Part shown: one piece after another, positions 8,957-30,401 of the stretch | How positions within the stretch are numbered: position 1 is the first letter of the stretch | Layout of the letters: every line of letters begins with the position of its first letter | From: Acidimicrobiaceae bacterium | GTDB taxonomy: Bacteria; Actinomycetota; Acidimicrobiia; Acidimicrobiales; RAAP-2 | NCBI GenBank assembly: GCA_003133545.1 | Contig: PKYA01000080.1 | Coordinates: 8,265-47,806 of the forward strand | Direction of reading: 5' to 3' | DNA length: 39,542 bases | Notes under the pieces: model-generated | What the model was told of the DNA's origin: nothing | The model's database searches: none | The model's input: the letters and a program-made list of their open reading frames with translations, nothing else | Translations under genes and position numbers: made by a program

Positions 8957-9451
8957 CTATCCCTCGCCTCCCTGTGCCGGAAGTACGGCCGACCAGACCA
9001 TCTGGTTCATCTCGACGTCGACGCGGAGCCGGGTCAGGCTGGTCGACTGGATCCGCCACCCCGCGTCGGTCTTCACATACGTGTCGTGGTAGTGGCCGAA
9101 GCCGCGCAAACTGCGTACGGGACCGGCCGGCCAGCGCAGCAAGTCCTCCATGGCCCAGACGCCCCGGGCCGTCGTCGGTGAGAGGATCTCGATCTCGGGC
9201 ATGTGGCCGTGGTGGACGGTCTGCACCCCTTCCATTCCGGCCTCGGCCATGGCGGCGATATCCGCCGCCCCGCGGGTGACGTGCGCGACGTCGCCGGGGG
9301 AAGCTCCGGCCTCTTCCGACATGTCCATAACGGCATCGGGGGCGAAGACATGGGCGAAGCCGTCCCAATCCTTCGTATCCATGCAGCGGAAGTAACGCGC
9401 CTTCAACTGCTTGATCTCCTCGGCCGCCAGGAGCTGCTCCGCTGGGTCCAT
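8957..9451 (-). CDS. SnoaL/NTF2-like protein
   Basis: This 164-residue protein of the nuclear-transport-factor-2 fold begins with a family-typical helix (E-E-I-K-Q-L-K-A-R-Y-F-R-C-M-D-T-K-D-W-D). Next come F-A-P-D-A-V-M-D-M-S, a central H-H-G-H-M-P-E-I-E-I, and the strand G-F-G-H-Y-H-D-T-Y-V-K-T-D-A-G-W-R-I. Members include cyclases, dehydratases, isomerases and non-catalytic binding proteins. The His and Asp lining the likely pocket allow catalysis but do not specify a reaction. ATG 9451 is preceded by GGGAGGG. It is encoded between the acyl-CoA ligase and the LLM oxidoreductase. Confidence 0.88.
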   Translation of the reverse strand: MDPAEQLLAAEEIKQLKARYFRCMDTKDWDGFAHVFAPDAVMDMSEEAGASPGDVAHVTRGAADIAAMAEAGMEGVQTVHHGHMPEIEILSPTTARGVWAMEDLLRWPAGPVRSLRGFGHYHDTYVKTDAGWRIQSTSLTRLRVDVEMNQMVWSAVLPAQGGEG

Positions 9452-9515
9452 GACCAACTTCCCTCCCCGCCGGACGCCCTGGTGGAGCTGACCATCCCGT
9501 CGTATCCCATTCGAA

Positions 9516-9560
9516 ATGCGCACGCCCATATTGCTCCGGATGCGCAACGCATGCTCCGGA
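9516..9560. repeat. imperfect tandem direct repeat
   Basis: Two copies each contain ATGCGCA followed by TGCTCCGGA: 9516-9522 with 9532-9540, and 9540-9546 with 9552-9560. The inner spacers are 9 and 5 bases. They fill the 112-base gap between the ligase stop and the SnoaL-like start. They may be a regulatory binding array or the remains of a duplication. Confidence 0.55.
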
Positions 9561-9563
9561 CAC

Positions 9564-11048
9564 TCAGCCTTCTGCGGCGCGCTCCTCCTGGAGCCTGCGC
9601 TTGAGCACCTTGCCGTTGGGCTCGCGTGGAAGACGCGCGACGAACTCGAACGTTCGTGGTCGCTTGAAGTCCGCCAGGTGCGCCGACAGGCGCTCGAGGA
9701 GCGCGGTCTCGTCCGGTGTCGCCCCGGACCGCAGCTCCACCACCGCGTGCACCCGTTGTCCCATCCGCGCGTCGGGCAAGCCGAACACCGCCGCATCGAC
9801 GACGTCGGGGTCTTCCGCCAGGGCGTTCTCCACCTCGGCCGGGTAGATGTTCACCCCGCCGCTCACGATCAGGTCGGTTCGCCGGTCGGCGATAAAGAGG
9901 TAGCCCTGTTCGTCGAGATGCCCCAGATCCCCCACCGTGACGAAGTCGTCGTGGTAAGCCGCCTCGGTCTTGGCGGCGTCACCCCGATAGCTGAAATGCG
10001 CCCCGGGGAATTGGCTCACGTAGATGGTGCCGATCTCGCCCGGAGGGGTGGGCCGGCCCCGGTCGTCAAGCACCCGCACGGTGAGCCCGGGGAACGGCCG
10101 CCCCACGCTGCCCGGCTTGAGGATCCATTCGCCAGGCGAAATCACCGTGCCCATCGCCTCGGTGGCGCCGTAGAGCTCCCACACCGTCCCGCGGGGGAAG
10201 ACCTCCAGGATGCGCCATTTGAGGGCGACCGGGCACGTGGCCGCCGCGTGGAGGACCAAACGAATGCTCGCGGTGTCGTGCTTCGTCCAGTCCGACTCGA
10301 GGATGCGGACGAAATGGGCGGGAACCATCTGGGTGCGGGTGACCCGGTGCTCGGCGATAAGGGCCAAGCAACCCTCACCCGTGAAGCGGTCCTGGACCAC
10401 GACGCGGCCGCCCTCCCACAGGGCGTACTCGGCGTACGCGCTCGGCGCCGTGTGGTACAGCGGGCCGTTGATCAACTGGACGGCGTCGGGCCCGTAGCCC
10501 CAGAACGCGGCGACGGCCGAACTGGTGGCCTCGGCCGCGGGCATCGGGGGCGGGCGGTCGACGGCCTTGGGTCGACCGGTGGTGCCCGAGGTGTACCCCA
10601 ACATGGCGGGTGGGGTGTTGAGGAAGTCACGCCGGGGCGGGGCGGTGGAGGGCGGGGCGAATCCAGGCGCATCGACGTCGAGCCCGGCGACACCTTCGGT
10701 GCTGAAGCGAACCGCCCCCTCGGTGCAGCAGATCTTCATCTTCGAATCGGCGACGATGTACTCCACCTCGTCGGAGGTAAGGCGCGGTGAGATCGGCACG
10801 AACAGCGCGCCGAGACGGGCGACGGCGTGGCTGACGATGAACCACTCGGCCCGGTTGTGCAGCAGGAGGCCGACGGCGTCGCCCGCTTCGACGCCCCGCT
10901 CGGCCAGCACGAGCGCCAACCCGTTGGCCCGCTCCTCGAGCTCGCCGAACGTCAGCCGGCGCTCACCGTCTAGAAGGGCAATGCGGTCCGGATCGATCGA
11001 GGCCGTTACCGAAACGCCGCGCGGATACGAGCCGATCTGCCCGCTCAT
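9564..11048 (-). CDS. acyl-CoA synthetase (AMP-forming)
   Basis: This 494-residue member of the adenylate-forming superfamily ligates a carboxylic acid to CoA with ATP. The phosphate-binding loop is Y-T-S-G-T-T-G-R-P-K, with L-Y-G-A-T-E at the A5 position and V-G-D-L-G-H-L-D-E-Q-G-Y at A7. The hinge region is R-R-T-D-L-I-V-S-G-G-V-N-I-Y-P-A-E-V-E, and the A10 lysine is present (P-N-G-K-V-L-K-R). ATG 11048 overlaps the upstream crotonase stop by 4 bp, so both are in one operon with the SnoaL-like and LLM genes. The acid activated is unknown. Confidence 0.93.
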   Translation of the reverse strand: MSGQIGSYPRGVSVTASIDPDRIALLDGERRLTFGELEERANGLALVLAERGVEAGDAVGLLLHNRAEWFIVSHAVARLGALFVPISPRLTSDEVEYIVADSKMKICCTEGAVRFSTEGVAGLDVDAPGFAPPSTAPPRRDFLNTPPAMLGYTSGTTGRPKAVDRPPPMPAAEATSSAVAAFWGYGPDAVQLINGPLYHTAPSAYAEYALWEGGRVVVQDRFTGEGCLALIAEHRVTRTQMVPAHFVRILESDWTKHDTASIRLVLHAAATCPVALKWRILEVFPRGTVWELYGATEAMGTVISPGEWILKPGSVGRPFPGLTVRVLDDRGRPTPPGEIGTIYVSQFPGAHFSYRGDAAKTEAAYHDDFVTVGDLGHLDEQGYLFIADRRTDLIVSGGVNIYPAEVENALAEDPDVVDAAVFGLPDARMGQRVHAVVELRSGATPDETALLERLSAHLADFKRPRTFEFVARLPREPNGKVLKRRLQEERAAEG

Positions 11049-13367: not shown

Positions 13368-13415
13368 CTCGTCCCCGCCCGGCCGCGGCCCGGCGGGGCG
13401 GCGAGGAGGGCCACG

Positions 13416-14183
13416 ATGGCGGAGTGGGAACAAAGGGCGGCGGACGCGGCAGTCACGGTCGCGACCATCTCGCTCGAGGTGGGAGGGGAGGCAGTCCCGA
13501 CCGTCGTGTGCCGGCCGGACAGGACCCCGCCGCGTGCGGCGGTGGTGCTCGCCACCGAGGCCCAGGGCGTCAACAACTTCATCAAGGGCGTGGGGGTGGA
13601 GCTGGCCGCCCATGGCTATGTCGCCGTGATTCCCGACTACTACCACGGCGCCGGCCCGCCTGATCCCGAGATCCTGGTCGACATCGCCCATATGGGCCCG
13701 CTGCTCGACGCCATCGCCTCCCTCGACTTCCGCCGGGGCGCCGAGGACATGCTCGTCGGCGTGGCCCACGCGCGGGAGCACGAGCAGGTCTCCCGGGTGG
13801 CCGTCTGGGGCTACTGCACCGGCGGCACGCTTTCATGGTTGGCGGCCGCGCTGGGTCGGGAGGTCGACGCCGCCGTGCTCTTCTACCCGAGCCAGCCCAC
13901 CTTCCACGAGCTCTCCGCCACCCAGCCCCAGAACCCGATCGACATGATCTGGCAGATCCGCTGCCCCGTCCTCCTGCTCGTCGGGGACGAGGACATGGTC
14001 TGGCCGCCCGAGCTTCTCACCGAGGTGACCCAGCGCTTCGCGACGTGGGAGATCCCGCTCGAGACCGCCGTCTACGCCGGCGCCGGCCATACCTTCGCCG
14101 GCCATTTCGAGGACTGGCACCGGCCCGACGCAGCGGCACAGGCCATGGAACGGGCCCTCGCCTTCGTGGACCGGCACCTCTGA
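13416..14183 (+). CDS. dienelactone hydrolase family protein
   Basis: This 255-residue alpha/beta hydrolase has the catalytic triad of the dienelactone hydrolase family. The nucleophilic cysteine is in G-Y-C-T-G-G, the Asp in V-G-D-E-D and the His in G-A-G-H-T-F. The early A-V-V-L-A-T-E-A-Q-G-V-N strand is also typical. It hydrolyses lactone or ester bonds; the natural substrate here is unknown, but it could open a lactone made by the BVMO downstream. ATG 13416 has GAGGAGGG 7-10 bases upstream. A UUCG-type hairpin follows the stop. Confidence 0.9.
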   Translation: MAEWEQRAADAAVTVATISLEVGGEAVPTVVCRPDRTPPRAAVVLATEAQGVNNFIKGVGVELAAHGYVAVIPDYYHGAGPPDPEILVDIAHMGPLLDAIASLDFRRGAEDMLVGVAHAREHEQVSRVAVWGYCTGGTLSWLAAALGREVDAAVLFYPSQPTFHELSATQPQNPIDMIWQIRCPVLLLVGDEDMVWPPELLTEVTQRFATWEIPLETAVYAGAGHTFAGHFEDWHRPDAAAQAMERALAFVDRHL

Positions 14184-16470: not shown

Positions 16471-17289
16471 GTGGCGGCGCGCGTGAGCCTCGAGTTCGAC
16501 GGGGCGTGCGTCGTCGTCACCGGCGGAGGCCATGGCATCGGCAGGGCGCTAGCCGAGCGCTTCGCGGCCGAGGGGGCGAAGGTGGTCGTCGCTGATATTC
16601 ACGCTCCCCGTGCCGAGAAGGTGGCCCAGCGGATCGGCGGATTGGCGGTGCCCGGTGACGTCGCCAGCCCGGAGGCGATGATCTCTTTGGTCGCGCGCGC
16701 CGTCGACGCGTTCGGACCCGTGCGCGTCTTCTGCTCCAACGCCGGCATCACCGGAGGGTTCGGGCTCGAGTCGACGCCGGCGCAGATCGACGAGGTGACG
16801 CGCGTCAACCTGCTCAGCCACGTGTGGGCAGCCCAGGCCGTCGTGCCGGCCATGGTCGCCCACGGCGGCGGCCATCTGGTCCAGACGCTTTCGTCGGCCG
16901 CACTGATCACAGGGCCGGCCCCGATGGGCTACACGTTCACCAAGCACGGGGCGCTCGGCTTCGCCGAATGGATCCAGCTCGCCTACGGCGACCGCGGTAT
17001 CAAGGTGACGTGCCTGTGCCCCAACCTGGTCAACACCGGGATGATCGGGCGCAACGAGGACGACGAGGAGGCCGGTACCATTTCTGCGCTTCCGGAGGGA
17101 CTCGGCGACGTCGTCGAGCCCGAGGACTGTGCCGAGCAGACCCTGGCCGCCATGCGCGCGGGCAGATTCCTGGTGCTCCCCCACCCCCAGGTCGGAAAAT
17201 CGTTCCGGCGCAAGGGCGAGAACTACGACCTCTGGATCGATCACACAGCCCAGCGTCTGCGCGCCCTGCGGCCGGGAGACAACCCGTAA
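16471..17289 (+). CDS. short-chain dehydrogenase/reductase
   Basis: This 272-residue classical SDR has the cofactor motif T-G-G-G-H-G-I-G near residue 17, S-N-A-G for N-N-A-G, and a catalytic Ser in L-S-S-A-A. The active-site pair is Y-T-F-T-K. It oxidises a hydroxyl, most simply the 3-hydroxyacyl-CoA made by the hydratase encoded just before it, or a ring alcohol. GTG 16471 is used; GTG 16483 is an alternative. It is the last gene of the 14365-17289 group. Confidence 0.9.
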   Translation: MAARVSLEFDGACVVVTGGGHGIGRALAERFAAEGAKVVVADIHAPRAEKVAQRIGGLAVPGDVASPEAMISLVARAVDAFGPVRVFCSNAGITGGFGLESTPAQIDEVTRVNLLSHVWAAQAVVPAMVAHGGGHLVQTLSSAALITGPAPMGYTFTKHGALGFAEWIQLAYGDRGIKVTCLCPNLVNTGMIGRNEDDEEAGTISALPEGLGDVVEPEDCAEQTLAAMRAGRFLVLPHPQVGKSFRRKGENYDLWIDHTAQRLRALRPGDNP

Positions 17290-17427: not shown

Positions 17428-19272
17428 ATGACCACATTTAGCTCCGAAGACGGAGCACCACATTTCGATCCGGACGCAGTCCACGCCAAGTACCTCGAAG
17501 AGCGAGACAAGCGCCTCGTCGAAGGGCGAGCGGCCATCAGGGACCTGTCCGGCGACACGCTGTTCGGCAAGTACCGGGAGGACCCGTTCACGCCCTACGT
17601 CCACCGCGAGCCGGTCACGGACGACGTGGACGTGGCCATCGTCGGGGCCGGCATCGGTGGCCTCGTGGCCGGTGCCGAGCTGCGTAAGGCCGGAATCGGG
17701 AAGATCCGGCTGATCGACGAGGCGGGCGGTGTCGGCGGTACCTGGTACTGGAACCGCTACCCGGGAATCATGTGCGACGTCGAGTCCTACTCGTACATCC
17801 CGATGCTCGAAGAGCTCGACTACGTGCCGAAGACCCGGTATGCCTACGGCGCCGAGATCCGTGAGTGCCTCGAGATGCTGGCCGAGAAGTTCGACCTCGT
17901 CGCCGACGGTCTCTTCCACACCCGGGTCACCTCGACCGTGTGGAACGAGGAGCTCGCCCGCTGGGTCATTGAGACCGACCACGGAGACATGATCCGCGCC
18001 CGCTACGTAGTCGAGGCGGTCGGCATCCTCAATCTCATGAAGCTCCCCGACATTCCGGGCATGGAGCTCTTCAAGGGGAAATCGTTCCACACGGCGCGCT
18101 GGGACTACGAGTACACGGGTGGGGACGCCTCCGGGCACCTCGACAAGCTCGCCGACAAGGTGGTCGCCGTCATGGGAACCGGGGCGAGCGCCGTCCAGTG
18201 CATTCCCCACCTGGCCGAGTCAGCCAAGCATCTCTACGTCTTCCAGCGCACGCCGGCACCCGTCGGGTACAGAGGCAATCGACCGACGACGCCCGAGTTC
18301 GCCGAAGAGCTCCGCGGCCATCCCGGCTGGCAGCGCGAGCGGATGTACAACTTCCACGACGTCCTGCGGGGCGCCGCCGAGAAGGACCTCGTCGACGACG
18401 CATGGACCAATTACTGGCCCAGGACGAGGGCCCGGCGACGCCCGCCCGACATGAGCATGGAACAGTACATGTACGAGATGGAGCGCGAGGACTTCGCCGT
18501 CATGGAAGAACACCGGGCGTGGATCGACGAGTTTGTCACCGACCCGGAGGTGGCAGAAATCCTGAAGCCGTACTACCGCTACGTGTGCAAGCGGCCCTGC
18601 TTTCTCGACGAGTACTACCCCACCTTCAGCCGGCCGAACGTCACCGTCGTCAACTGTCCGGCCGGAATTGAGCGGATCACCGAGACCGGGGCCATCTGCA
18701 ATGGCCAGGAGTACGAGTTCGACCTTCTCGTCTACGCGACGGGATTCGAGGCCGAGGTGACGCCGTTTCCCCGTCGGGCGGCACACGACATCATCGGTCG
18801 TGGGGGCCTCTCCGTAGCCGAGGCATGGGCCGAGGGGCCCGCCACCCTCCACGGCATAATGACGAGGGGCTTCCCGAACATGTTCATCATGCCCTCACCA
18901 GGCCAGCAATCCGTCATCACCGTGAACTTCACCCTGGTGAATTCGGAGGCGGCCGAACACATCGGCCACACCGTCAAGCTTCTTGACGAGCGGGGGGTCC
19001 GGATCTTCGACGTCTCGCAGGAGGCTCAGGACGCCTACGTCGACTTCATCCTGAGCAGGTACGTGGCTGCGTTCGAAATGATGGAAGCGTGCACCCCCTC
19101 CAGGGTGAACTTCGAGGGGAATCCCCGAGCGGCGAACCCCCGAAGCGGTTCGTGGGGGGGCGGTATGGGCGATCTGCACGGATGGATACGGATGCTCGCG
19201 GCATGGCGCGAACAAGGTGAGTTCGAAGGACTGGAGCTCGACCAACCAGCAGTGACGCGCGAAAGGGTGTGA
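17428..19272 (+). CDS. Baeyer-Villiger monooxygenase
   Basis: This 614-residue flavoprotein has the FAD Rossmann motif G-A-G-I-G-G (73-78) and G-G-T-W-Y-W-N-R-Y-P-G (103-113). The type I BVMO fingerprint F-K-G-K-S-F-H-T-A-R-W-D (215-226) matches FxGxxxHxxxW(P/D), and the NADPH Rossmann motif is G-T-G-A-S-A (250-255). It inserts oxygen next to a ketone to give an ester or lactone. Length exceeds the 540 of cyclohexanone monooxygenase because of an about 65-residue N-terminal extension, as in larger BVMO subfamilies. ATG 17428 is preferred; a GTG at 17416 is possible. The SDR and lactonase-like genes follow in the same direction. Confidence 0.93.
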   Translation: MTTFSSEDGAPHFDPDAVHAKYLEERDKRLVEGRAAIRDLSGDTLFGKYREDPFTPYVHREPVTDDVDVAIVGAGIGGLVAGAELRKAGIGKIRLIDEAGGVGGTWYWNRYPGIMCDVESYSYIPMLEELDYVPKTRYAYGAEIRECLEMLAEKFDLVADGLFHTRVTSTVWNEELARWVIETDHGDMIRARYVVEAVGILNLMKLPDIPGMELFKGKSFHTARWDYEYTGGDASGHLDKLADKVVAVMGTGASAVQCIPHLAESAKHLYVFQRTPAPVGYRGNRPTTPEFAEELRGHPGWQRERMYNFHDVLRGAAEKDLVDDAWTNYWPRTRARRRPPDMSMEQYMYEMEREDFAVMEEHRAWIDEFVTDPEVAEILKPYYRYVCKRPCFLDEYYPTFSRPNVTVVNCPAGIERITETGAICNGQEYEFDLLVYATGFEAEVTPFPRRAAHDIIGRGGLSVAEAWAEGPATLHGIMTRGFPNMFIMPSPGQQSVITVNFTLVNSEAAEHIGHTVKLLDERGVRIFDVSQEAQDAYVDFILSRYVAAFEMMEACTPSRVNFEGNPRAANPRSGSWGGGMGDLHGWIRMLAAWREQGEFEGLELDQPAVTRERV

Positions 19273-19397
19273 GTGGTACGCCATCGAACAGTTGGCGACC
19301 GATACCTTGCTCGCCATGGATCAGAAGGGGGAGTCAGCGGTGAGGCAGTCACAAAAGACACCGGCGGCGCGCAGGCGCGGAGTTCGCAGGAGGAACC

Positions 19398-21089
19398 TTG
19401 TCCTCCGATAAGGCGCGCCGTCAGCGTATTGTTGTCGTAACAGGCGGCGCGGCGGGAATCGGCGCGGCGATTGCCCAGGCATTCGGTCACAGCGGCGCCT
19501 TCGTGGTCACAGTGGATCCGGTCCTTTCGCTGGACGGTTCGAGCCGGATCGCCGACGAGGGGCCCACGACGGCTCAGCAGATCATCGATGCCGGGGGGAC
19601 TGCGCGGGCCTCCAACCTCTCGGTCACCGACCGAGAGGGGGTTCAGACGCTCTTCGCCGACTTGGTTGAGGAGTTCGGGGCCCTCGACACGGTTGTCAAT
19701 GTCGCCGGAATCTCGCGCCCCACCGACTTCGCCGCCGGAAGCGAGGAGGACTGGGCCGCTGTCATCGGCGTGCACCTCGACGGGTATCTCAACGTCCTCG
19801 GCGCGGCGCTGCCCATCATGGTCGAGGCCGGGCACGGCCGGATACTGGGAGTCACCTCAGGTTCAGGATGGCGACCGGCCAACACCGGAGCGTACGGGTG
19901 CGCCAAGCGCGCCGTGGCTGCGCTGACCTGGCAGATCGGGCAGGCGACACCGGCCGGCGTGACCGTCAACGCCCTTTCTCCGATCGCCTTGACCAGGATG
20001 ATCACCGGTGCGCGGTCAAGTGCAGCGGGAGGTCAGTCGGCGGCGGACGCGAGGACCGGGGGGCTGTCCCTCGGTGCAGCTCCGCCCCCGGAGAATCTCG
20101 GACCGGTCGGCGCCTACCTCGGGAGCGAGGAGTTCTCCTGGTGCCGGGGGCAGGTGATCTTCTCGAATGGCGCGGAGGTGGCGTTGGTCACCCCCCCACG
20201 TCTGCTCGAAGTCTGCCGGACCGCGGACGTCAGTGCGCTGCCGCACGCCCTTGCAGCCGTCTTCCCGATCGCCATCGTTCCAGCCGAGGCCGGGCAGTCC
20301 ACTAACGGCGGGAGCACCCCGCGCTTCGGTCCGGTGTTCGACGAACCGGCGCCCGACTCTGGAGCCACGCCGTCTTCAGCCCTCACGTGCCTGGTCGTGA
20401 CCGACGACCCTGCATGGGGGAATGCGATCAGTGCTGGCCTGACTTCGCAGGGCGTCAGCTGTGTGGGCTTAGGAGCAGGAGATGCGGCTCAGCCCGTTTC
20501 GACCGAAATGGCAGAGGGATTCGCAGCGTCCCAGCAGCTGGCACAGGCGGCCCGCGACGCGGGTCCGTTCGATGCGGTGGTCGTGGTGGCCCGTCAGGGG
20601 GCGGGCGCCGAGGCACCCGACGACAGTTGGCAACAGATTCTCGACGAGCACGCCGGGTTGGCCCAGAAGCTGCTCAACGACGCCGGGTGGGCACGAGCCG
20701 TTGCGGACCACTCGGCCCAGGCCGACCGGCCCGTCAGCCTGGTCATGGTCACCGACGCCACGTCCGCGGGCGGCCGCAGCAGGGCACAAGCTGTTGCGCA
20801 GCATGCCCGGTCGTCCCACACGGCGACCTCGGACCGGGTCGACGCTTTTGCCATCAGCGTTGAGACCGTCGACGAAAATGAACGACGGACTGTGGCCGAT
20901 CTTGTGACGCACCTCGTGCGCAGTCCCGATGTCGCCGCCCTCTCGGGCGCCGAGCTGGTCGTGGCGTCCGGTTGGTTCGGGCTGCGCAGCCACCCGAGAC
21001 CTGCCGCAACCATCTCATTCGGCGGCCCGGCCATTCCCGGATGGCTCGATGCCGCCTTGCGCAGCGTCGTCAACGAAAGCGCCGGCTGA
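19398..21089 (+). CDS. double-domain SDR with a degenerate second domain
   Basis: This 563-residue protein has an intact classical SDR in its N-terminal half. The cofactor loop is T-G-G-A-A-G-I-G (15-22), with N-V-A-G for N-N-A-G, Ser about 154 and Tyr166/Lys170 in Y-G-C-A-K. After a Pro/Gly-rich segment (about 296-327), a second Rossmann-like half begins L-T-C-L-V-V-T-D-D-P-A-W-G and continues with F-D-A-V-V-V-V-A-R-Q-G. It lacks the glycine loop and the Y-x-x-x-K pair, so it looks like a pseudo-SDR. The TTG start has a strong GGAGGA site 3-9 bases upstream. Between a BVMO and a lactonase gene, it probably oxidises the alcohol precursor to the ketone. Confidence 0.88.
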   Translation: MSSDKARRQRIVVVTGGAAGIGAAIAQAFGHSGAFVVTVDPVLSLDGSSRIADEGPTTAQQIIDAGGTARASNLSVTDREGVQTLFADLVEEFGALDTVVNVAGISRPTDFAAGSEEDWAAVIGVHLDGYLNVLGAALPIMVEAGHGRILGVTSGSGWRPANTGAYGCAKRAVAALTWQIGQATPAGVTVNALSPIALTRMITGARSSAAGGQSAADARTGGLSLGAAPPPENLGPVGAYLGSEEFSWCRGQVIFSNGAEVALVTPPRLLEVCRTADVSALPHALAAVFPIAIVPAEAGQSTNGGSTPRFGPVFDEPAPDSGATPSSALTCLVVTDDPAWGNAISAGLTSQGVSCVGLGAGDAAQPVSTEMAEGFAASQQLAQAARDAGPFDAVVVVARQGAGAEAPDDSWQQILDEHAGLAQKLLNDAGWARAVADHSAQADRPVSLVMVTDATSAGGRSRAQAVAQHARSSHTATSDRVDAFAISVETVDENERRTVADLVTHLVRSPDVAALSGAELVVASGWFGLRSHPRPAATISFGGPAIPGWLDAALRSVVNESAG

Positions 21090-21141
21090 AAGTGCCCAGG
21101 CAGATTCGCCGGCTCGCCGGCCTTCACGAGGAGAAAACGCG

Positions 21142-21996
21142 ATGGCACCGACGATCGACCGAATAGTCGACGCCCACGTGCACCTGTGGGACCCGGCCCG
21201 CACCGATTGGTACCCGTACCTTTCAGGACTCCGGGACCTCAACATGGGCGACATCTCGGGGTGGGCCCGCTACTACGACCAGAAGATTTACTTCGCCGAA
21301 TCGGCAAAGTGGAACGTGCGAAAGTTCGTCCACGTCGCTGCGGCGACACAATTCGTCGCTGAGACTTTGGAGAAGGATGAGGAGGCCCGGGAGACGGGAC
21401 ACCCCGATGCGATCATCGGGGGCGTTGCCCTGAACCAGTCCGTGGCCACAGCGATCGACCAGCTCGACGCGCAGATGGCCGCGCCGCGTTTCCGGGGGGT
21501 CCGCCCGATGGGAGGCAGCACCGACGTGGTGCCGAATGTCGACATCCTGAGAGCGCTCCAGGAGCGTGGCCTCGTATTCGAGATGATCGCCCACCCCGAA
21601 GACCTGCAGGATGCGGCGACCTCGCTGGCGGGCTGGAGCGACCTGACGGTCGTCATCGAGCACACTGGATGGCCGCATTCGAAGGAAGAGTTCACAGTAT
21701 GGAAGGCGGGAATGTCCGTCTTGGCGTCGCTTGGCGCCAATATTCACTGCAAGCTCTCCGGTCTGTCCTTGGGGCTCGGGGCCATGAGCGCAGACGCCTT
21801 TCGGCCCTGGATTGAGCACTGTCTCGAGGAGTTCGGCGTCGATCGCTGCTTCTTCGCAAGCAATCTCCCGCCCGATGGCGCCGTGGGCACATTCGACGAT
21901 CTCTACTCCGCCTATGCCACTCTGACCGCTGGCCTCGAGGCTGAAAGCCGGGACAAACTTTTCGCCGCGAACGCAGAGCGCGTGTATCGCTGTTAG
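21142..21996 (+). CDS. COG3618-type amidohydrolase, likely lactonase
   Basis: This 284-residue TIM-barrel hydrolase belongs to the family with 2-pyrone-4,6-dicarboxylate lactonase and sugar lactonases. The N-terminus V-D-A-H-V-H-L-W-D-P (9-18) is diagnostic, followed by F-R-G-V-R-P-M-G and V-I-E-H-T-G-W-P. The C-terminal F-A-S-N-L-P-P-D-G replaces the G-S-D-W-P of better-known members. It probably opens a lactone, the expected product of the BVMO two genes upstream, though the substrate is inferred. AGGAG lies just ahead of ATG 21142. It converges on the crotonase gene at 22015. Confidence 0.87.
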   Translation: MAPTIDRIVDAHVHLWDPARTDWYPYLSGLRDLNMGDISGWARYYDQKIYFAESAKWNVRKFVHVAAATQFVAETLEKDEEARETGHPDAIIGGVALNQSVATAIDQLDAQMAAPRFRGVRPMGGSTDVVPNVDILRALQERGLVFEMIAHPEDLQDAATSLAGWSDLTVVIEHTGWPHSKEEFTVWKAGMSVLASLGANIHCKLSGLSLGLGAMSADAFRPWIEHCLEEFGVDRCFFASNLPPDGAVGTFDDLYSAYATLTAGLEAESRDKLFAANAERVYRC

Positions 21997-22014: not shown

Positions 22015-22833
22015 TCAGAGCCGCCCTTCGGGGCGGATCTCTTCGGGGATCCACGACGGTGCCCGCCGCTCCTTGAACGCCTGCCAACCCTCGACGCGTT
22101 CGGGGCCGATCAGGCTGTGCTCCATGGCGCGGCGGTCGAACGTGCCGTAGAACGCGTCGATGGACTTCTTCACCGCCGCCCGTGCTTCGGGTGCCATGTA
22201 GCAGCACTCGGTGAGCGCCTCGGTCGCCGCCCGCAGAAGGTCCTCGTGGGGGACAGAGCGCGCCACCAGCCCCCAGTCGAGGGCCTCCGCGGCGTCGACC
22301 CGCCGGCCGGTGAGCAGCATGTCGCGCGCCCGGGCGGGACCTATCTGTCGGGGCAGGATCTGGCCGTAATAGGTATCGGCGATGCCGCGCAGCAACTCCG
22401 GGGCGCGGAAGGTGGCGCGCTCGCTCGCCACCGCCACGTCGGCCAGCAGCGAGATCATGAGACCACCGCCCTGGCACAGCCCGTTCACCGCGACGACGAC
22501 CGGCTTGTCGGATCGGCGCACGGCATCGAAGGGCACCACGTCCATGCCCAAGAGACCGAGTCCCTCCCAGTTGTCGTCGGTGGCATTGCCGAGGTCGCCG
22601 CCGGTGATGAACGTCTCGCCCTCGGCCCGGATGAGCAACCCGGCAATGTGGTCGCTGCGGTTCACCTGCTCGATCGCATGACGGATGCCGAAGTACATCG
22701 CCGGGGTCAGCGTGTTCTTGAATTGGGGCCGATCGACCACCAGCACTGCAAAGGGCGGCTGGCGCTCGAAGCGCAGATAGTGGGTTCCGCACCAGTCACC
22801 CAGCGGAGCGCGGGGGCCCTCAGGCGGAACCAC
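22015..22833 (-). CDS. enoyl-CoA hydratase/isomerase family protein
   Basis: This 272-residue crotonase has A-V-L-V-V-D-R-P near the N-terminus and oxyanion segments T-F-I-T-G-G-D-L and V-N-G-L-C-Q-G-G-G. The first catalytic Glu is replaced by Met (G-L-M-I-S-L-L-A-D), but the second is kept (R-A-P-E-L-L-R-G-I). One Glu may support isomerase or hydrolase chemistry. GTG 22833 lies 8 bases after the stop of the upstream acyl-CoA dehydrogenase gene, so it is the distal gene of the 27836-22015 operon. Confidence 0.87.
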   Translation of the reverse strand: MVPPEGPRAPLGDWCGTHYLRFERQPPFAVLVVDRPQFKNTLTPAMYFGIRHAIEQVNRSDHIAGLLIRAEGETFITGGDLGNATDDNWEGLGLLGMDVVPFDAVRRSDKPVVVAVNGLCQGGGLMISLLADVAVASERATFRAPELLRGIADTYYGQILPRQIGPARARDMLLTGRRVDAAEALDWGLVARSVPHEDLLRAATEALTECCYMAPEARAAVKKSIDAFYGTFDRRAMEHSLIGPERVEGWQAFKERRAPSWIPEEIRPEGRL

Positions 22834-22841
22834 GGCGTGCC

Positions 22842-24143
22842 CTACCGCGGCCGCGACGGGGACGCATTATGGCGCACCTCGTCGAAGGGCTTGTCCTTGT
22901 CCGCGGCGTACTCGCGTGGCATCCCGAGGATCCGTTCGCTGATGATGTTGCGCTGCATCTCGTTGCTGCCGCCCCCGAGGCTCCCGCTCTGGCGCGACAG
23001 GAACTCGATGCCCTTCTCCCCGGCCAGATCGCCCTCCGCCCAGGCGCCGGCGCCGGCGCCGGCAAGCTCGAGGGCGATATCTTGGTGGCGCTCGGCATTC
23101 GTGGCGGCGTAGAGACGGTGCAGTGAGCCCGCCGGACCCGGGAATTTTCCGGTGCTGATGCCCTTGGTGACCCGGCTGATGAGCTGCGCGCCGACCAGGT
23201 CATTTGCCCGCGACTCGGCCACCAGCTGGCGTACGTGCGAATCGCCGGTGCGCCCGGTCGCCCGGGCCAGATCGATCAGGTCTGTGCGTCCGGAGCCATG
23301 CTCCCCGCGCCCGCCGAAGACCCCACTCGTGTAGGGAGAGCCCCCGCCGACGGCGTCGCGCTCGTGATAGAGCAGCCGAGTCGCCACCGTCCACCCGTCG
23401 TTCACCTCGCCGACCACGTTCTCGGCGGGAATCGCCACGTCGTCGAAGAACTCTTGGCAGAACTCGCTGGAGCCGTTCACCATCTTGATCTGCTGGACCT
23501 CGATCCCGGGCTGGTGGATCTTCACGATGAAGCAGGTGAGTCCCCGGTGCTTGGGGACGTGCCACTCCGTACGCGCCAGGCACAGCGCGTAGTCGGCACG
23601 GAAGGCGCCCGAGCTCCAGATCTTCGAACCGTTCAGAATGAAGACGTCGCCGTCCCGGGTGGCCCGGGTGACGAGGCTGGCCAGATCGGATCCGCCCGAA
23701 GGCTCGGAGAGGAACTGCACCCACATCTCCTCCCCCGAGATGATCTTGGGGATGTGCGCGCGCTTTTGCTCCTCGGTCCCGAAGTCGAGCAGCGTGGGGG
23801 CGAGAATGGAGAAGGTCGGGACGTTCAAGACCAGCGGCATCTCGTAGGGCGCGGACTCGTGGGTGAAGGCTGCCTGGTGCGCCCGGGTCAGGCCCTGGCC
23901 CCCGTACTCCTTGGGGAAGCACAGGCCGGCGAAGCCCCCGTCGAACAGGATCCGCTGCAACTCCCGGGCGCGGGTGCCCATCTCGTCCTGGAGCATGAGC
24001 TGGTGCGGTGTCAGGGTCTCCTGCAACGGCGGCATGTTGTCCGCCAGCCAGGCCCGCGCCCGCATACGGAACGCCTCGAGGTCCTCCGTCCCCTCGGCCG
24101 GGGCGGCGTCCACGCGGTCGGTGTCCAAACGGTCAGTGGCCAT
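22842..24143 (-). CDS. acyl-CoA dehydrogenase, subunit with C-terminal S-L-G-G-G-S-N-E-M motif
   Basis: This 433-residue FadE-type protein has F-P-K-E-Y-G-G-Q-G, the flavin loop S-E-P-S-G-G-S-D-L-A-S-L and N-G-S-K-I-W-S-S-G. A candidate catalytic Glu is in L-L-Y-H-E-R-D-A-V-G-G-G. Near the end it has G-S-L-G-G-G-S-N-E-M-Q-R-N-I-I-S-E-R-I-L-G. Together with the gene overlapping it by 11 bp it resembles the alpha2beta2 dehydrogenases of actinobacterial steroid side-chain degradation (FadE26/27 and FadE28/29 type). It probably oxidises a bulky acyl-CoA. GGAGGAG precedes ATG 24143. Confidence 0.9.
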   Translation of the reverse strand: MATDRLDTDRVDAAPAEGTEDLEAFRMRARAWLADNMPPLQETLTPHQLMLQDEMGTRARELQRILFDGGFAGLCFPKEYGGQGLTRAHQAAFTHESAPYEMPLVLNVPTFSILAPTLLDFGTEEQKRAHIPKIISGEEMWVQFLSEPSGGSDLASLVTRATRDGDVFILNGSKIWSSGAFRADYALCLARTEWHVPKHRGLTCFIVKIHQPGIEVQQIKMVNGSSEFCQEFFDDVAIPAENVVGEVNDGWTVATRLLYHERDAVGGGSPYTSGVFGGRGEHGSGRTDLIDLARATGRTGDSHVRQLVAESRANDLVGAQLISRVTKGISTGKFPGPAGSLHRLYAATNAERHQDIALELAGAGAGAWAEGDLAGEKGIEFLSRQSGSLGGGSNEMQRNIISERILGMPREYAADKDKPFDEVRHNASPSRPR

Positions 24144-25281
24144 GCGACTCCTCCAATCGGAGCGCCTGGGCGATGCGCTCCCGATGGTCGTAGGGGGTAC
24201 CGAACAGGGCGCGATCCTGCACCACCCGGCGGATGTAGAGGTGCAGATCGTGGTCCCACGTGACCCCGATGCCCCCGTGAAGCTGGACGCAATCCTGCAG
24301 GATCAGCGGAGCGCGGTCCCCGATGTAGGACTTGGCCACACTCACAAACTCGAAGGCGCGCTCGGACTTGGCGTCGACGGATCGTGCGGCGGCGAGTGCG
24401 GTGGCCAGCGATGCCTCGGTCCACAGCTTCATGTCGGCGAAGCGGTGCTTCAGAGCCTGGTACGAGGCGAGAGGCCGGCCGAAGGAGTACCGGTCGAACG
24501 AGTACTCCATGGTGAAGGAGAGGACGCGGTCGATCACTCCCGCCATGGAGGCACACTCCAGTGCGACGGCCAGCTCGAACAGACGCTCGATCTGGGGGGC
24601 GCCCGCCCCGGCTTCGCCCAGCACCGCGGCTGCGGGAAGGACCACATCGTCCAGTTCAACCATGGCGAAGCGCCGCACGAGGTCGAGCCCCTCGGCTCTG
24701 GTCACCGTCACCCCGGGGGCATCGGCATCGACCAGGAATTGGGTGGGCTCACCATCCACGAGGGCGGCCACCACGAAGAACTCGGCTTCGGCCCCCGCTT
24801 CGACCGGCCCCTTGCGGCCAGTCAGCACGAAGTCGGCGCCGCGCCTGGTCGCCTGGAGCCCCACGCCGCTCGGGAGCCCCGGAGCCCCCTTTTCGGTCAG
24901 GCACCAGCTGGCGATGGCCTCGCCGGAGAGGAGGTCAGGAAGGTAGCGGTCGCGCTGGTCCTGCGTGCCGTACTCGGACAGGGCGGCAGCCACCACGTTG
25001 ACCGGAAGCAGGGGCCCGGGGGCCACCCCCCGGCCCATCTCCTCGGCCACGATGACCAGGTCGAGCAGCCCGTGGCCCGAGACGCTGCCCCCGCCGTCGT
25101 CCTCGGAGACGAGGAGCGACGTCCACCCGAGCCCGGCGCCTTGACGCCACCAGTCGGCGGGGAACCCGGCCGGCTCCTTCTCGGCCCATTCCCGCACCGT
25201 CGACAGCGGGCTGGTGCGCTCCAAGAACTTGGCCGTGGTCTCCCGGAACAGCTCCTGATCTTCGGTCAGCTCGAGATCCAC
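24133..25281 (-). CDS. acyl-CoA dehydrogenase, partner subunit
   Basis: This 382-residue protein begins M-D-L-E-L-T-E-D-Q-E-L-F-R. It has the flavin-contacting Arg in D-R-Y-S-F-G-R-P-L-A-S-Y-Q-A-L-K-H and the C-terminal L-H-G-G-I-G-V-T-W-D-H-D-L-H-L-Y-I-R-R, typical of the partner chain in heteromeric FadE enzymes. The middle flavin loop is weak (L-T-E-K-G-A-P-G), suggesting that chains share flavin sites. The GTG start at 25281 has GAGGAAGAG upstream. It is followed with an 11-bp overlap by the second dehydrogenase and preceded by the P450 gene. Confidence 0.89.
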   Translation of the reverse strand: MDLELTEDQELFRETTAKFLERTSPLSTVREWAEKEPAGFPADWWRQGAGLGWTSLLVSEDDGGGSVSGHGLLDLVIVAEEMGRGVAPGPLLPVNVVAAALSEYGTQDQRDRYLPDLLSGEAIASWCLTEKGAPGLPSGVGLQATRRGADFVLTGRKGPVEAGAEAEFFVVAALVDGEPTQFLVDADAPGVTVTRAEGLDLVRRFAMVELDDVVLPAAAVLGEAGAGAPQIERLFELAVALECASMAGVIDRVLSFTMEYSFDRYSFGRPLASYQALKHRFADMKLWTEASLATALAAARSVDAKSERAFEFVSVAKSYIGDRAPLILQDCVQLHGGIGVTWDHDLHLYIRRVVQDRALFGTPYDHRERIAQALRLEESHGH

Positions 25282-25374: not shown

Positions 25375-26565
25375 CTACGCCGACCAGAGCAGGGGCAGAG
25401 TATCGACCTGGCGCAACCCGAACATGAAATTGAGCTCGGTCCCGGGCGCGATCTCGTAGTCGGGGATCCTCCGGTGCCACTCGCGCAGCGTCGTCCGCAG
25501 CTCCAGGCGCGCCAGGTGGGAGCCCAGGCAGCGGTGCACCCCGGCGCCAAAGGCCAGGTGCTTGGAGTTACGGGTGAGGATTACGTCGTCCGCGTCGGGC
25601 AGGGCCCGCTCGTCCGTGTTGGCCGAACCGATGCTGACGCCGACGTGGTCTCCCTTGTGCACCGGGCAGCCGTCGAGCTCGGCGTCCTGCTTGGCCACCC
25701 GAGCCACGCCGGTCACCGGCGTCTCCCAGCGCAACAGCTCTTCGACAGCGGTCGGGATGATGGAGGGGTCGTCGACGAGCAGCCGGCGCTGCTGGGGGTG
25801 CTGGGCCAGGTAGGCGAAGAAACACTCCAAGGTGTCGGTGACGGTATCGAGGCCGGCGATGAGGAACAGGAAGCAGATGCCGAGGATCTCGTCGTCGGTC
25901 AGCCGGTCCCCACCGACCTCCGCCGAGGCGAACATGCTGAGCAGGTCCTCCTGGGGCCGCTTGCGCCGGTCGGCCAGCGTCTCGGCGAAGAACCGCTCGA
26001 CCTCCGCTGCATTGACGCGCTGCGCCGCCTGGACCTGCTCGAGGTCGTCGCCGGCGGGGCGCAGGATCCCGTTCTTCATCTCGAGGAACATGGCGAGCTC
26101 GGACACCGGGAGACCGAGCAGGCGAAGGAAGACGGAGGACGGGAGCGGCTCGGCCAGCGCCGTGGTGAACTCGCACGAGCCATCGTCAATAAAGCCGTCG
26201 ATGAACTCGTTGACCAGCTGGGCGATGTCCGGCTCAATGAGGTTCATCCGCTTGGGGGCGAAGATCGGATCGAGCAGCTTGCGGTACTTGGAGTGCTCCG
26301 GCGGGTCCACCTGCAACGGGATGAGGGGCACCGACTGCCCGAGATCGACCGCCTCCATGGCGGAGGAGAAGATCTCGGGATGCTGGAGGGCGAACTCCAC
26401 CTCGGCCCGCCGCATGATCTCGATCCCACCAAAGGGTCCGGGGACAGCGGCACCGACGGCCCGTGCCTTCTTGTAGAACGCCTGCGGGTTGCGCCCCGTT
26501 TCGGGGTCCAAGAAGAGGTTCGGGTCGAAGGTTCCGGACTCCGCCACCGCCTGCTCTCCTGCCAT
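25375..26565 (-). CDS. cytochrome P450
   Basis: This 396-residue soluble bacterial P450 has the oxygen-binding helix I motif A-G-L-D-T, the K-helix E-E-L-L-R and the heme loop F-G-A-G-V-H-R-C-L-G with the axial ligand at about Cys346. It would hydroxylate a hydrophobic substrate and needs electrons from a ferredoxin such as the one at 2250-2441; no ferredoxin reductase gene is present. ATG 26565 overlaps the preceding amidohydrolase stop in an ATGA arrangement, placing it second in the operon with two acyl-CoA dehydrogenases and a crotonase. Confidence 0.95.
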   Translation of the reverse strand: MAGEQAVAESGTFDPNLFLDPETGRNPQAFYKKARAVGAAVPGPFGGIEIMRRAEVEFALQHPEIFSSAMEAVDLGQSVPLIPLQVDPPEHSKYRKLLDPIFAPKRMNLIEPDIAQLVNEFIDGFIDDGSCEFTTALAEPLPSSVFLRLLGLPVSELAMFLEMKNGILRPAGDDLEQVQAAQRVNAAEVERFFAETLADRRKRPQEDLLSMFASAEVGGDRLTDDEILGICFLFLIAGLDTVTDTLECFFAYLAQHPQQRRLLVDDPSIIPTAVEELLRWETPVTGVARVAKQDAELDGCPVHKGDHVGVSIGSANTDERALPDADDVILTRNSKHLAFGAGVHRCLGSHLARLELRTTLREWHRRIPDYEIAPGTELNFMFGLRQVDTLPLLWSA

Positions 26566-27836
26566 CAGCGCGGTTTCGCCAAGTCGGCAGCCAAGATGGC
26601 ATGGGGCTTGGCCGGGCCCTTGCGGGTCGACCGGATAGACACGTCACGCCCCGCCACCTGCTCACGGAGCGCCCGCACCGTGCACTGCTCCTTGGGGATC
26701 ACCGAGAACGGGTCGTAGCTGAAGTGCTTCATGGCGTTCAGGTGCGTGATCCGGTTGATGTCGTGCTCGGAAAGCTCCCCGATGTACTTCCATAGCTGCT
26801 CGGGCGCAGTGGGCCAGGTGGTGTCGGAGTGCGGGTAGTCGCACTCCCAGGTCACGTTGTCCATGTTGAGGAAGTCACGGCTGGCGACACCGAAGGCATC
26901 GTCGATGAAGCAGGTGATGATGTGCTGGTTGAACACCTCGCTCGGCAGCTGGTGGCCGAAGTCCTGCCCGGTCCAGTAGTGGTGCTTGTCGTAGTTGTAG
27001 TCGATGCGCTCCAAGAAGTAGGGGATCCATCCGATCCCGCCCTCGGACAGGGCCACCTGGAGATCGGGGAACTTGCGCAGGACCGGCGACCAGATGAGAT
27101 CGGCGGCAGCCTTGACGATGTTCATCGGGGTCAGGCTGATGAGGACGTCGATCGGCGCGTCCGGCGAGGTGATCACCATCTCGGAGGACGAGCCGATGTG
27201 CATACACACGACGACGTTCTCCTCGCTGCAGGCCTTCCAGAAGGGGTCCCAGTGGTCGGTGTGCACGCTGGGCCAGCCCAGCTTCGACGGGTTCTCGGAG
27301 AACGTCACGGCGTGGGCCCCCTTGGCCGCCGTCCGCCGGACCTCGGCGGCCAGGGCCTCGGGATCCCAGATGGCCGGGATGGAGCACGGGATGAAGCGCC
27401 CCGGGTAGGTCCCGCACCACTCGTCGATGTGCCAGTCGTTGTAGGCCTGGACCATGGCCAGGGCGACGTCCTTGTCCTCCGTGCGGGCGAACAACTGGCC
27501 GCAGAACCCGGTGAAGGACGGGAAGCAGAGCGAACCCAGCACCCCGTTGGCGTTCATGTCGGCCACCCGCTCGTGGATGTCGTAGCAACCGGGACGGATC
27601 TCGTCGAAGGCTGTCGGCTCCATGCCGTACTCGTCGGGTGGGCGGCCGGCCACCGCGTTCAGCGCGATGTTGCCCATCACGTTGCCCTCGTACGTCCATG
27701 CGCTGGTGCCGTCGGCACGGGTGATGAACTTCGGCGCCAGGTCGGCGTACTTGGCAGGGAGCCTGCCCTCGAAGAGGTTGGGCGGCTCGACGAGGTGGTC
27801 ATCGACGCTTACCAGGATCAGGTCATCAACATCCAT
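26565..27836 (-). CDS. amidohydrolase-2 family metal-dependent hydrolase or decarboxylase
   Basis: This 423-residue protein is distantly similar in layout to the one at 14365. The N-terminus L-V-S-V-D-D-H-L-V-E-P-P-N-L-F carries the Asp-x-His metal motif. C-M-H-I-G-S-S-S-E carries a second His, followed by S-E-G-G-I-G-W-I-P-Y-F-L-E-R-I-D-Y. W-E-C-D-Y-P-H-S-D-T-T-W-P holds the conserved Asp. This V-D-D-H-x-x-E-P-P subgroup is common in actinobacteria and to my knowledge uncharacterised. It is first in a five-gene minus-strand operon. ATG 27836 has GGGGG about 9 bases upstream. Confidence 0.9.
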   Translation of the reverse strand: MDVDDLILVSVDDHLVEPPNLFEGRLPAKYADLAPKFITRADGTSAWTYEGNVMGNIALNAVAGRPPDEYGMEPTAFDEIRPGCYDIHERVADMNANGVLGSLCFPSFTGFCGQLFARTEDKDVALAMVQAYNDWHIDEWCGTYPGRFIPCSIPAIWDPEALAAEVRRTAAKGAHAVTFSENPSKLGWPSVHTDHWDPFWKACSEENVVVCMHIGSSSEMVITSPDAPIDVLISLTPMNIVKAAADLIWSPVLRKFPDLQVALSEGGIGWIPYFLERIDYNYDKHHYWTGQDFGHQLPSEVFNQHIITCFIDDAFGVASRDFLNMDNVTWECDYPHSDTTWPTAPEQLWKYIGELSEHDINRITHLNAMKHFSYDPFSVIPKEQCTVRALREQVAGRDVSIRSTRKGPAKPHAILAADLAKPR

Positions 27837-27938: not shown

Positions 27939-28034
27939 TTCGCAGCGCACCACCCACGCCGACAGGGCAGGGGGCAAGTGGCAGGTCGGCACGGCGCGGT
28001 GCCAGACTGGCGCGGCCCAAGAGGGGGAAGGCCC

Positions 28035-30401
28035 GTGAGCGCACGCGTGAATGAAGACGAACGGAGCCGTCAGGACGGGCACGACGCCCACTCCCCCGAC
28101 GGCGGGGAAGGCCCGCGCATCCTCGACGGCAGGCGGGTCATCGACTGCTCGGAGAACATGGCCGGCGCGGTGGCCGCGCTGCTGCTGGGCGAGGCCGGGG
28201 CCGACGTCATCAAGGTGGAGCCGCCGGGCGGTGATCCCACCCGGGGCTCCCTCGGCTTCGTGACCTGGAACCGATCGAAGCGCAGCGTCGTGCTCGACCT
28301 CGACACCGAGCAGGGGCGTGCCGATCTCCATCGCCTTCTCGACGGGGCCGACATCCTGATCCACACCTTCGGGCCGGCCGCCGCCGCGGCCCGCGGCGTG
28401 AGCGACCCCGAACTGGCGGCCCGTCACCCGCAGTTGATCACCAGCGCCATCTTGGGCTGGCCGGCCGGCCACCCGAGCGCGGAAGGGCCCAGCGACGATC
28501 TCTTGGTCAGCGCCCGCCTCGGCCTCTGCGACGAACAACGCGGGCACCGCGACGGCCCGGTGTTCCTCCGCTTCCCCTTCGGGAGCTGGTGTGCCGTGTA
28601 CCTCTGTGTCATCGGCGTGCTGGCCCGCCTCATTCAGCGCGAGCGGGGTGGCGCCGCCGGGGGCCCGGCCCACACGAGCGTGGCGCAGGGCGCGCTGGTG
28701 CCGACCATGATGCACTGGGCCCGCGCCGAGAACCCCGGTCCCATGTTCGCCTGGGGCCTGCCCAAGGACATGGTGCCGTCGCTGTTCGAGTGCGGCGACG
28801 GTGTGTGGGTCCACCTCATGCGCAACGCGGACACCGACTCCCCGCTGATGGTGGCCGCCTTCGCGGCCATGGGGGACGAGGGAGTGACGGCGGCCAACGC
28901 AGAATTCGCCGGGCTGGCCACACCGGGTTACCCCAACTTCGGCGCCAACCGGGTGGCGTTCCTCACCCGACCCTCGACCGAGTGGCTCGAAGACTTCTGG
29001 ACCCATGACATACCGGCCCAACCGGCCGCCGAATACGGCGCCATCCTGGCCGACGCGCAGGCCCGGGCGAACGGCTACACCACCGAGGTGGTCGACCCTG
29101 TCCACGGCCGTGTGACGCAGGCCGGCACGCCGTTCTCCACCGAACCACCCTCCCGGGTCAGCGGTCCGGCCCCGTCCCTCGGCCAACACACCGAGGAGGT
29201 CCTGGGCCAAGCGCCTGCGCCGGCCGCGCCTGCGGTACCGGCCCCCGCCGCAGCGCCCCGGGTGCGGGCGCCGCTGGAGGGGCTGCGCGTTCTCGACCTC
29301 GGCAATTTCCTGGCGGGGCCTCTCGGGCCCATGCTCATGGCGGACCTCGGTGCCGATGTGATCAAGGTGGAAGCAACCACCGGGGACAAGATGCGCCACG
29401 TCGAGCGGGTCTTCGCCTCGTGCCAGCGGGGCAAGCGGGGCGTCGCCCTCGATCTGAAGGTGGCGGCGGCCCGTCCCGCCCTCGAGGCCCTCGTGGGGTG
29501 GGCCGACGTCGTGCACCACAACCTGCGCATGCCGGCGGCCCGCAAGCTGGGCCTCGACTACGACTCGCTTCGCGCCGTCAACCCCGGGCTCATCTACTGC
29601 CACGCCAGTTCGTACGGGCCGAAGGGCGAGCGGGCTGACTGGCCCGGCTACGACCAGCTCTTCCAGGCCTCGGCCGGGTGGGAGGTGCTCGGCGGCGGCG
29701 AAGGCAACGACCCCATGTGGTTCCGCTTCGGCTTCATGGACCACCTCTGTGCCATGGCCTCGGTGGTCGCCACCTTGCTCGCCGTCTATCACCGGGACCG
29801 CACCGGTACGCCGCAGCTGGTCACGGGCTCCCTCCTCGGCGGGGGCGTACTCACCAACAGCGAGACCTTCCTCAAGGACGGCCGCCTGGTGGCGCAGGCC
29901 GACCCCCTCGACCACGAGCAGATGGGCCTTTCGCCGGGCTACCGCCTCTACGCGTTGACCGACGGCTGGATCGCGCTGTGCGCCCGGGAGGGCGCGCAGC
30001 TGTCCGCCGCCTGCGCGGTGGCCGGGGTGCGCGCGCCGGAGGAGCTGGTCGGGGCTTTCGCCACCATGCCGGCGGCGCCGACGCTCGACGCGCTCCGCGC
30101 CGCGGGGGTGCACTGCGAACCCGTCACCCTCGACCAGGGGGAGACCTTCCTCGACGATCCCCTGCACCGCGCCCTGGGCCTCGTCACGTCTTACCCCCAT
30201 GCCGAGTGGGGCGAGCTGGAGCAGGTGGGCGCGCTGTGGAGCCTCGGGGACCTCGACGTCCGCCTCGACCGTGCGCCGCCGGCCCTGGGCGAGCACACCG
30301 AGGAGGTCCTGGCCGAGGTGGGGCTTGACCGCGCTGCCATCGATGCCCTGCTGGCAGAGTCCGTAGCCGTACAAGCGACACCATCGACGGTCCCGGTATG
30401 A
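28035..30401 (+). CDS. fused double class III CoA-transferase
   Basis: This 788-residue protein has two CaiB/BaiF-like domains joined by an Ala/Pro-rich linker near residues 393-413. Each has the family A-D-V-I-K-V-E segment and an R-S/R-G-V-x-L-D-L strand. By alignment with the usual R-x-x-T-G turn, the catalytic Asp is present in the second domain (F-M-D-H-L-C-A-M) but is Ser in the first (F-G-S-W-C-A-V). It would act as a single-chain pseudo-heterodimer moving CoA onto a carboxylate. The GTG start at 28035 has GAGGGGGAAG upstream. It is the first gene of the 28035-33633 operon. Confidence 0.9.
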   Translation: MSARVNEDERSRQDGHDAHSPDGGEGPRILDGRRVIDCSENMAGAVAALLLGEAGADVIKVEPPGGDPTRGSLGFVTWNRSKRSVVLDLDTEQGRADLHRLLDGADILIHTFGPAAAAARGVSDPELAARHPQLITSAILGWPAGHPSAEGPSDDLLVSARLGLCDEQRGHRDGPVFLRFPFGSWCAVYLCVIGVLARLIQRERGGAAGGPAHTSVAQGALVPTMMHWARAENPGPMFAWGLPKDMVPSLFECGDGVWVHLMRNADTDSPLMVAAFAAMGDEGVTAANAEFAGLATPGYPNFGANRVAFLTRPSTEWLEDFWTHDIPAQPAAEYGAILADAQARANGYTTEVVDPVHGRVTQAGTPFSTEPPSRVSGPAPSLGQHTEEVLGQAPAPAAPAVPAPAAAPRVRAPLEGLRVLDLGNFLAGPLGPMLMADLGADVIKVEATTGDKMRHVERVFASCQRGKRGVALDLKVAAARPALEALVGWADVVHHNLRMPAARKLGLDYDSLRAVNPGLIYCHASSYGPKGERADWPGYDQLFQASAGWEVLGGGEGNDPMWFRFGFMDHLCAMASVVATLLAVYHRDRTGTPQLVTGSLLGGGVLTNSETFLKDGRLVAQADPLDHEQMGLSPGYRLYALTDGWIALCAREGAQLSAACAVAGVRAPEELVGAFATMPAAPTLDALRAAGVHCEPVTLDQGETFLDDPLHRALGLVTSYPHAEWGELEQVGALWSLGDLDVRLDRAPPALGEHTEEVLAEVGLDRAAIDALLAESVAVQATPSTVPV

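Follow-up and report, generated by a model that had tools for sequence, protein, structure and literature searches.

Results

The window, i.e. the whole stretch of 39,542 nucleotides analysed here, is part of contig C1 in a 4.75-Mb assembly that is 84% complete. At 17428-21996, it contains three ORFs on the + strand that encode, from 5' to 3', a Baeyer-Villiger monooxygenase (BVMO), a fused double SDR (henceforth SDR2) and a COG3618 protein with an amidohydrolase fold (Table 1); we refer to these three genes as the block. The first-pass annotation had reported three consecutive genes on the same strand, as we also find; it had, however, listed an alcohol/ketone SDR first, and while an SDR is encoded, it is the second gene of the block. 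Ribosome sites judged to be good precede the starts of both SDR2 (GGAGGA, before the TTG at 19398) and COG3618 (GAGGAG, before the ATG at 21142). The intergenic gaps of 125 bp (BVMO/SDR2) and 52 bp (SDR2/COG3618) are, alone, no proof of an operon.

Table 1. Features of the block and its surroundings in the window
Feature	Position	Strand	Remarks
Luciferase-like monooxygenase and SnoaL-like protein	7961..9796	-	Near the CoA ligase
AMP-binding acyl-CoA ligase-like protein	9564..11048	-	Family also found around the block in 10 loci
Dienelactone-hydrolase-family (DLH) alpha/beta hydrolase	13407..14183	+	3.2 kb upstream; alternative lactonase candidate
Single-domain SDR	16471..17289	+	Upstream of BVMO; not constant in the block
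BVMO	17428..19272	+	Type I, 614 aa; nearest solved relative 5mq6, nearest NCBIfam model PtlE
Fused double SDR (SDR2)	19398..21089	+	563 aa, TTG start; intact N-terminal domain, degenerate SDR-fold C-terminal domain (~325-563)
COG3618 amidohydrolase-fold protein	21142..21996	+	284 aa; H12, H14, E173-H174, K204, N241 at strand-8 Asp position, D245
Enoyl-CoA hydratase and two acyl-CoA dehydrogenases	22015..25281	-	Beta-oxidation-like context
Cytochrome P450 and long Amidohydro_2 protein	25375..27836	-	Abutting; separate, wider-spread module, close to the block in certain lineages
Protein with two class III CoA-transferase domains	27978..30401	+	807 aa

The BVMO had been annotated as a type I enzyme from a fingerprint, and both type I fingerprints are present, i.e. 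FxGxxxHxxxW(P/D) as FKGKSFHTARWD and (A/G)GxWxxxx(F/Y)P(G/M)xxxD as GGTWYWNRYPGIMCD. The former is kept in 46/49 orthologues, with one of the three exceptions being truncated, and two GxGxxG motifs are found in 40/49; in the window protein, the first of these Rossmann motifs reads GAGIGG and the second region GTGASA. Among solved structures, the BVMO matches 5mq6 best (375 bits), which we take to be the polycyclic ketone monooxygenase PockeMO, followed by phenylacetone monooxygenase (266 bits) and cyclohexanone monooxygenases (~220 bits). The nearest NCBIfam model is PtlE (NF045818), and the score of 651 bits against a curated cut-off of 1100 rules out that the protein is the PtlE (neo)pentalenolactone D synthase itself. 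With 5mq6 and PtlE as its nearest relatives, the BVMO points to bulky ketones rather than cyclohexanone; the substrate is probably a terpenoid-, steroid- or macrocycle-like bulky ketone, and a BVMO of this clade could give an ester instead of a lactone. BVMOs of the wider clade that lie outside the block (44-50% identity) adjoin genes for P450, a TauD-type dioxygenase, an SDR, an acyl-CoA dehydrogenase or other proteins, and COG3618 was not detected among the ten adjacent genes annotated.

The N-terminal domain of SDR2 contains TGGAAGIG at residue 15 and YGCAK at residue 166, which match TGxxxGxG and YxxxK, respectively. Neither a nucleotide-binding motif nor YxxxK was found in the C-terminal domain, which has its own invariant residues, e.g. 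GWxGLRxHP. The earlier description of a double SDR therefore holds for the fusion and for the intact motifs of the first domain but not for a second domain with SDR motifs. The closest match to the predicted model of SDR2 (mean pLDDT 85) is 2et6, a tandem (3R)-hydroxyacyl-CoA dehydrogenase, which aligns over its full length (TM 0.72), followed by the N-terminal half of malonyl-CoA reductase. SDR2 is thus likely to form a pseudo-dimer within one chain, in which a single site is functional.

The third protein was correctly assigned to the COG3618 family, matching PF04909 (Amidohydro_2) at 96.6 bits with a gathering cut-off of 26.4. Altogether, the source assembly contains 55 PF04909 matches per 4.75 Mb, an apparent amidohydrolase expansion. 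The predicted model (pLDDT 94) is a TIM-barrel with L-fuconolactonase 4dlf as the best fold match (TM 0.82), followed by 6uvz and then pyrone-dicarboxylate hydrolases; decarboxylases also match. By contrast, the protein scores 49 bits against the NCBIfam fuconolactonase model NF052480, which has a cut-off of 400.

The HxH motif at strand 1 (H12 and H14) is invariant among COG3618 orthologues, and His174 and Lys204 are kept in the window protein. In LigI, Asp248 is the general base; LigI D248N and D248A, which are present as mutant complexes among the PDB matches, reportedly lose turnover. The strand-8 segment reads FGSDWPV in 4dlf and FASNLPPD in the window protein, and the shared motif and fold, rather than a residue-level structural alignment, suggest that Asn241 corresponds to the D248N change in LigI. 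Asn at this position and Asp at +4 (D245) are both present in 58/58 readable orthologues. An acid at +4 (Asp or Glu) is also found in 17 Asn-type relatives that are more distant, whereas in five Asp-type relatives, which retain the strand-8 Asp, both the Asn and the +4 acid are absent. The solved Asn-type protein 6uvz, which is named only Amidohydrolase 2, is without the +4 acid and, thus, the pairing of Asn with a +4 acid is not universal. Both other Amidohydro_2 proteins beside the block retain the strand-8 Asp (ETDFPH and ECDYPH), and two distant relatives (L139 and L140) have His at this position (GSHxP). Because the defining catalytic Asp is absent, we file the window protein under the PF04909/COG3618 fold and outside the characterised lactonases.

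Conserved adjacency of the BVMO and COG3618 genes had been set beforehand as a check on the first-pass proposal. A scan of species genomes yielded 78 loci, and 50 orthologue loci with >3.6 kb upstream were testable. BVMO, SDR2 and COG3618 are colinear in 46/46 of the non-Frankia loci among them, which are from Acidimicrobiales, Mycolicibacterium and some MAGs, while the four exceptions are all in Frankia. Specifically, an automatic test detects all three genes in 40/50 loci, and six further loci (L108, L109, L110, L112, L114 and L130) have the block with an SDR of 55-59% identity (over the N-domain) and a BVMO of 53-55% identity. Mycolicibacterium septicum, M. sphagni, M. hodleri, M. rhodesiae and Mycolicibacter heraklionensis are among the hosts. 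In L108, L114 and L130 (L068), the block is headed by tandem BVMOs that are ~42% and ~54% identical to the BVMO of the window.

Among 148 genomes of the order, COG3618 orthologues (52-62% identity) are present in 13 other genomes, beyond which identity falls to ≤38%. In a search that scored a limited number of candidates per genome, BVMO orthologues (54-60% identity) were found in the same 13 genomes and in none elsewhere; the next-best BVMOs in the order have ≤49% identity among the matches listed. This co-occurrence has a Fisher p of 7e-19 without correction for kinship, and some loci of the order-wide search and the species scan are from the same genomes. In 11/13 genomes, a single contig carries the whole block as BVMO-SDR2-COG3618; in G062, the BVMO gene is on another contig than the rest of the block, and in G045 it is cut by the contig end. 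The protein distances of BVMO, SDR2 and COG3618 correlate (r 0.85-0.90; 42 loci), and the three proteins are therefore inherited together. Moreover, the genes overlap by 4 bp at both junctions in two loci (L079 and L080), and the BVMO/SDR2 junction is likewise overlapped in several further loci. A phylum-wide sample of 396 genomes, in which the block was detected only in the source genome and one other, added little beyond indicating that the block is rare. In total, these observations confirm that the block is conserved and co-inherited in several actinobacterial lineages and support its being a functional unit; the refuting condition named in the first-pass annotation, i.e. lack of a conserved neighbourhood in relatives, does not apply.

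SDR2 is adjacent to COG3618 in 50/50 testable loci, and the BVMO gene is present in 46/50. In the four Frankia loci (L116, L117, L120 and L125), SDR2 and COG3618 are adjacent and an orthologous BVMO is missing; the best match in a whole-genome BVMO search of these four Frankia has only 38-39% identity and is located elsewhere. Where it was read, the gene upstream of the Frankia pair resembles one for a nuclease/helicase protein; downstream, the opposite strand encodes the alpha subunit of a Rieske ring-hydroxylating oxygenase. Similarly, COG3618 relatives in Nocardia and Williamsia (31-35% identity) have an SDR directly upstream and no adjoining BVMO. In Nocardia L131, the SDR gene overlaps the COG3618 start and follows a series of genes that, judged by their sequence appearance and by weak matches, resemble those for enoyl-CoA hydratase, acyl-CoA dehydrogenase and ligase. 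From the Frankia pair and the SDR overlap in Nocardia, we conclude that this branch of hydrolases is accompanied most constantly by the SDR rather than by the BVMO. The partnership extends to the Asp-type relative L134, in which it lies within an apparent sugar-acid operon. Both L134 and L138, which is also of the Asp-type, adjoin an SDR and apparent sugar transporter and sugar-acid enzyme genes, unlike the context of the Asn-type.

The gene families that recur in the flanks of the block are AMP-ligases, acyl-CoA dehydrogenases, SDRs, thiolase-like proteins, class III CoA-transferases and enoyl-CoA hydratases as well as aldehyde dehydrogenase (in Mycolicibacterium; 5 loci only) and GntR/TetR regulators. 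These neighbours fit catabolism via the release of a carboxylic acid and its loading onto CoA. No alpha/beta hydrolase was found among those recurrent neighbour families that were annotated. The DLH alpha/beta hydrolase of the window was rejected as the lactonase of the block because none of the 78 related loci contains a matching gene. Likewise, the P450 and the long amidohydrolase were rejected as fixed partners because their close homologues form a separate module in G069, where they are adjacent on contig C10, apart from the contig with the block, and because they are present in 31 and 47/148 genomes, respectively. These homologues are nevertheless enriched in block-bearing genomes (11/13 and 12/13, respectively).

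Altogether, the ring-opening operon proposed in the first-pass annotation is upheld in part, as a conserved BVMO/SDR/COG3618 unit with acyl-CoA-catabolic surroundings and no annotated recurrent alpha/beta hydrolase, but its lactonase is only a candidate. Fold and family agree with lactone opening by the COG3618 protein, while the absence of the strand-8 Asp, a defining catalytic residue of the characterised members, the Frankia pair without BVMO and the SDR adjoining the distant relatives weaken this claim.

Discussion

In the chn and cpn pathways, an SDR alcohol dehydrogenase, a type I BVMO and a hydrolase are encoded together, and the acid product enters acyl-CoA metabolism. The block similarly brings together genes for an SDR, a type I BVMO and a hydrolase; however, the chn/cpn lactonase has an alpha/beta fold whereas the block hydrolase has an amidohydrolase fold, and, unlike in chn/cpn, the SDR is a predicted fused pseudo-dimer and the BVMO scores higher against 5mq6 than against cyclohexanone monooxygenases. 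Of the omega-hydroxy-acid and aldehyde dehydrogenases expected in a chn/cpn-type cluster, we saw an aldehyde dehydrogenase family near the block in 5 loci. The SDR and COG3618 pair is also found in L-fucose dehydrogenase and L-fucono-1,5-lactonase (BmulJ_04915, 4dlf), the latter being the closest fold and sequence match; by contrast, the block protein has Asn where 4dlf has Asp on strand 8, there are no sugar genes around the block, and the fuconolactonase model gives the low score described above. The 2-pyrone-4,6-dicarboxylate lactonase LigI shares the COG3618 fold and the HxH motif but retains Asp248, while the window protein naturally has Asn at the apparent equivalent. PtlE, PockeMO and cyclopentadecanone monooxygenase, which have bulky ketone substrates, are BVMOs of the same type with an N-terminal extension; in comparison with PtlE, the context of the block is catabolic and the BVMO score is under the PtlE cut-off. 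In the progesterone degradation (pdc) cluster of Caenibius tardaugens, a type I BVMO functions in polycyclic ketone catabolism (PMC12239570); this cluster has two monooxygenases and two regulators, and an amidohydrolase is not mentioned in the text of that paper (PMC12239570). No pathway with a BVMO and an amidohydrolase-type lactone hydrolase was found in the literature searched.

From the observed gene content, gene order, conservation, co-occurrence, motifs and predicted folds, we infer every reaction, the reaction order and the substrate of a route that we consider the most likely reading and to which we give about even credence, i.e. that the block is a catabolic module that converts an alcohol via a ketone and a lactone or ester to a hydroxy acid using an atypical amidohydrolase-fold hydrolase. 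The N-terminal site of SDR2 would oxidise the alcohol to the ketone, while the C-terminal half would stand in, on the same chain, for an inactive second subunit of the dimer. The BVMO would insert oxygen beside the carbonyl of the bulky ketone to give a lactone or ester, which the COG3618 protein would hydrolyse to the hydroxy acid. The latter would then be taken on by the CoA ligases and beta-oxidation enzymes encoded nearby. If the hydrolase of the route is this Asn-type protein, water would have to be activated by something other than the strand-8 Asp of its relatives, and the invariant acid at +4 may take over this role. A stricter version, in which a COG3618 enzyme of a new mechanistic type, without the strand-8 Asp and with a relocated acid (N-x-P-x-D), opens BVMO lactones or esters and is fed by the pseudo-dimeric SDR, is a tentative proposal that we consider doubtful on present evidence.

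Alternatively, the COG3618 protein might work primarily with the SDR, which would oxidise a lactol or alcohol to a lactone that COG3618 opens, with the BVMO acting earlier or later. The pairing of SDR and COG3618 in all testable loci, in Frankia without the BVMO, in Nocardia and Williamsia and even in the Asp-type locus L134 favours this scenario, and L-fucose dehydrogenase with L-fuconolactonase would, by analogy, be a precedent; however, outside Frankia the BVMO gene is always the first gene of the block, and the BVMO co-evolves equally well with SDR2 and COG3618. We regard this scenario as rather unlikely. It is somewhat less probable still that the COG3618 protein is not a lactonase and instead catalyses C-C bond hydrolysis, decarboxylation, hydration or isomerisation of an SDR or BVMO product. 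Such a role would be consistent with the invariance of Asn241 and Asp245, with the fold matches to decarboxylases and with the Asp in both further Amidohydro_2 proteins close by. On the other hand, the strand-8 Asp is used by superfamily decarboxylases as well, the closest relatives of assigned function, by fold and by sequence, are lactonases, and 6uvz likewise has the Asn. Finally, although single-genome adjacency is weak evidence with 55 PF04909 matches in the assembly, a chance neighbourhood in an amidohydrolase- and oxidoreductase-rich genome is effectively ruled out, since the block is conserved across several actinobacterial lineages, in dozens of genomes, and perfectly co-distributed in the sampled order.

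If the catabolic route proposed here is right, Acidimicrobiales and mycolicibacteria would have a widespread, uncharacterised route for bulky ketones in which a type I BVMO is paired with a hydrolase fold that we did not find described alongside BVMOs in the literature searched, and the block would show, as a natural experiment, if loss of the strand-8 Asp is compatible with activity of a COG3618 enzyme. Because the hosts include cultured strains (Mycolicibacterium septicum, M. sphagni, M. hodleri and Frankia sp. QA3), the proposal is directly testable.
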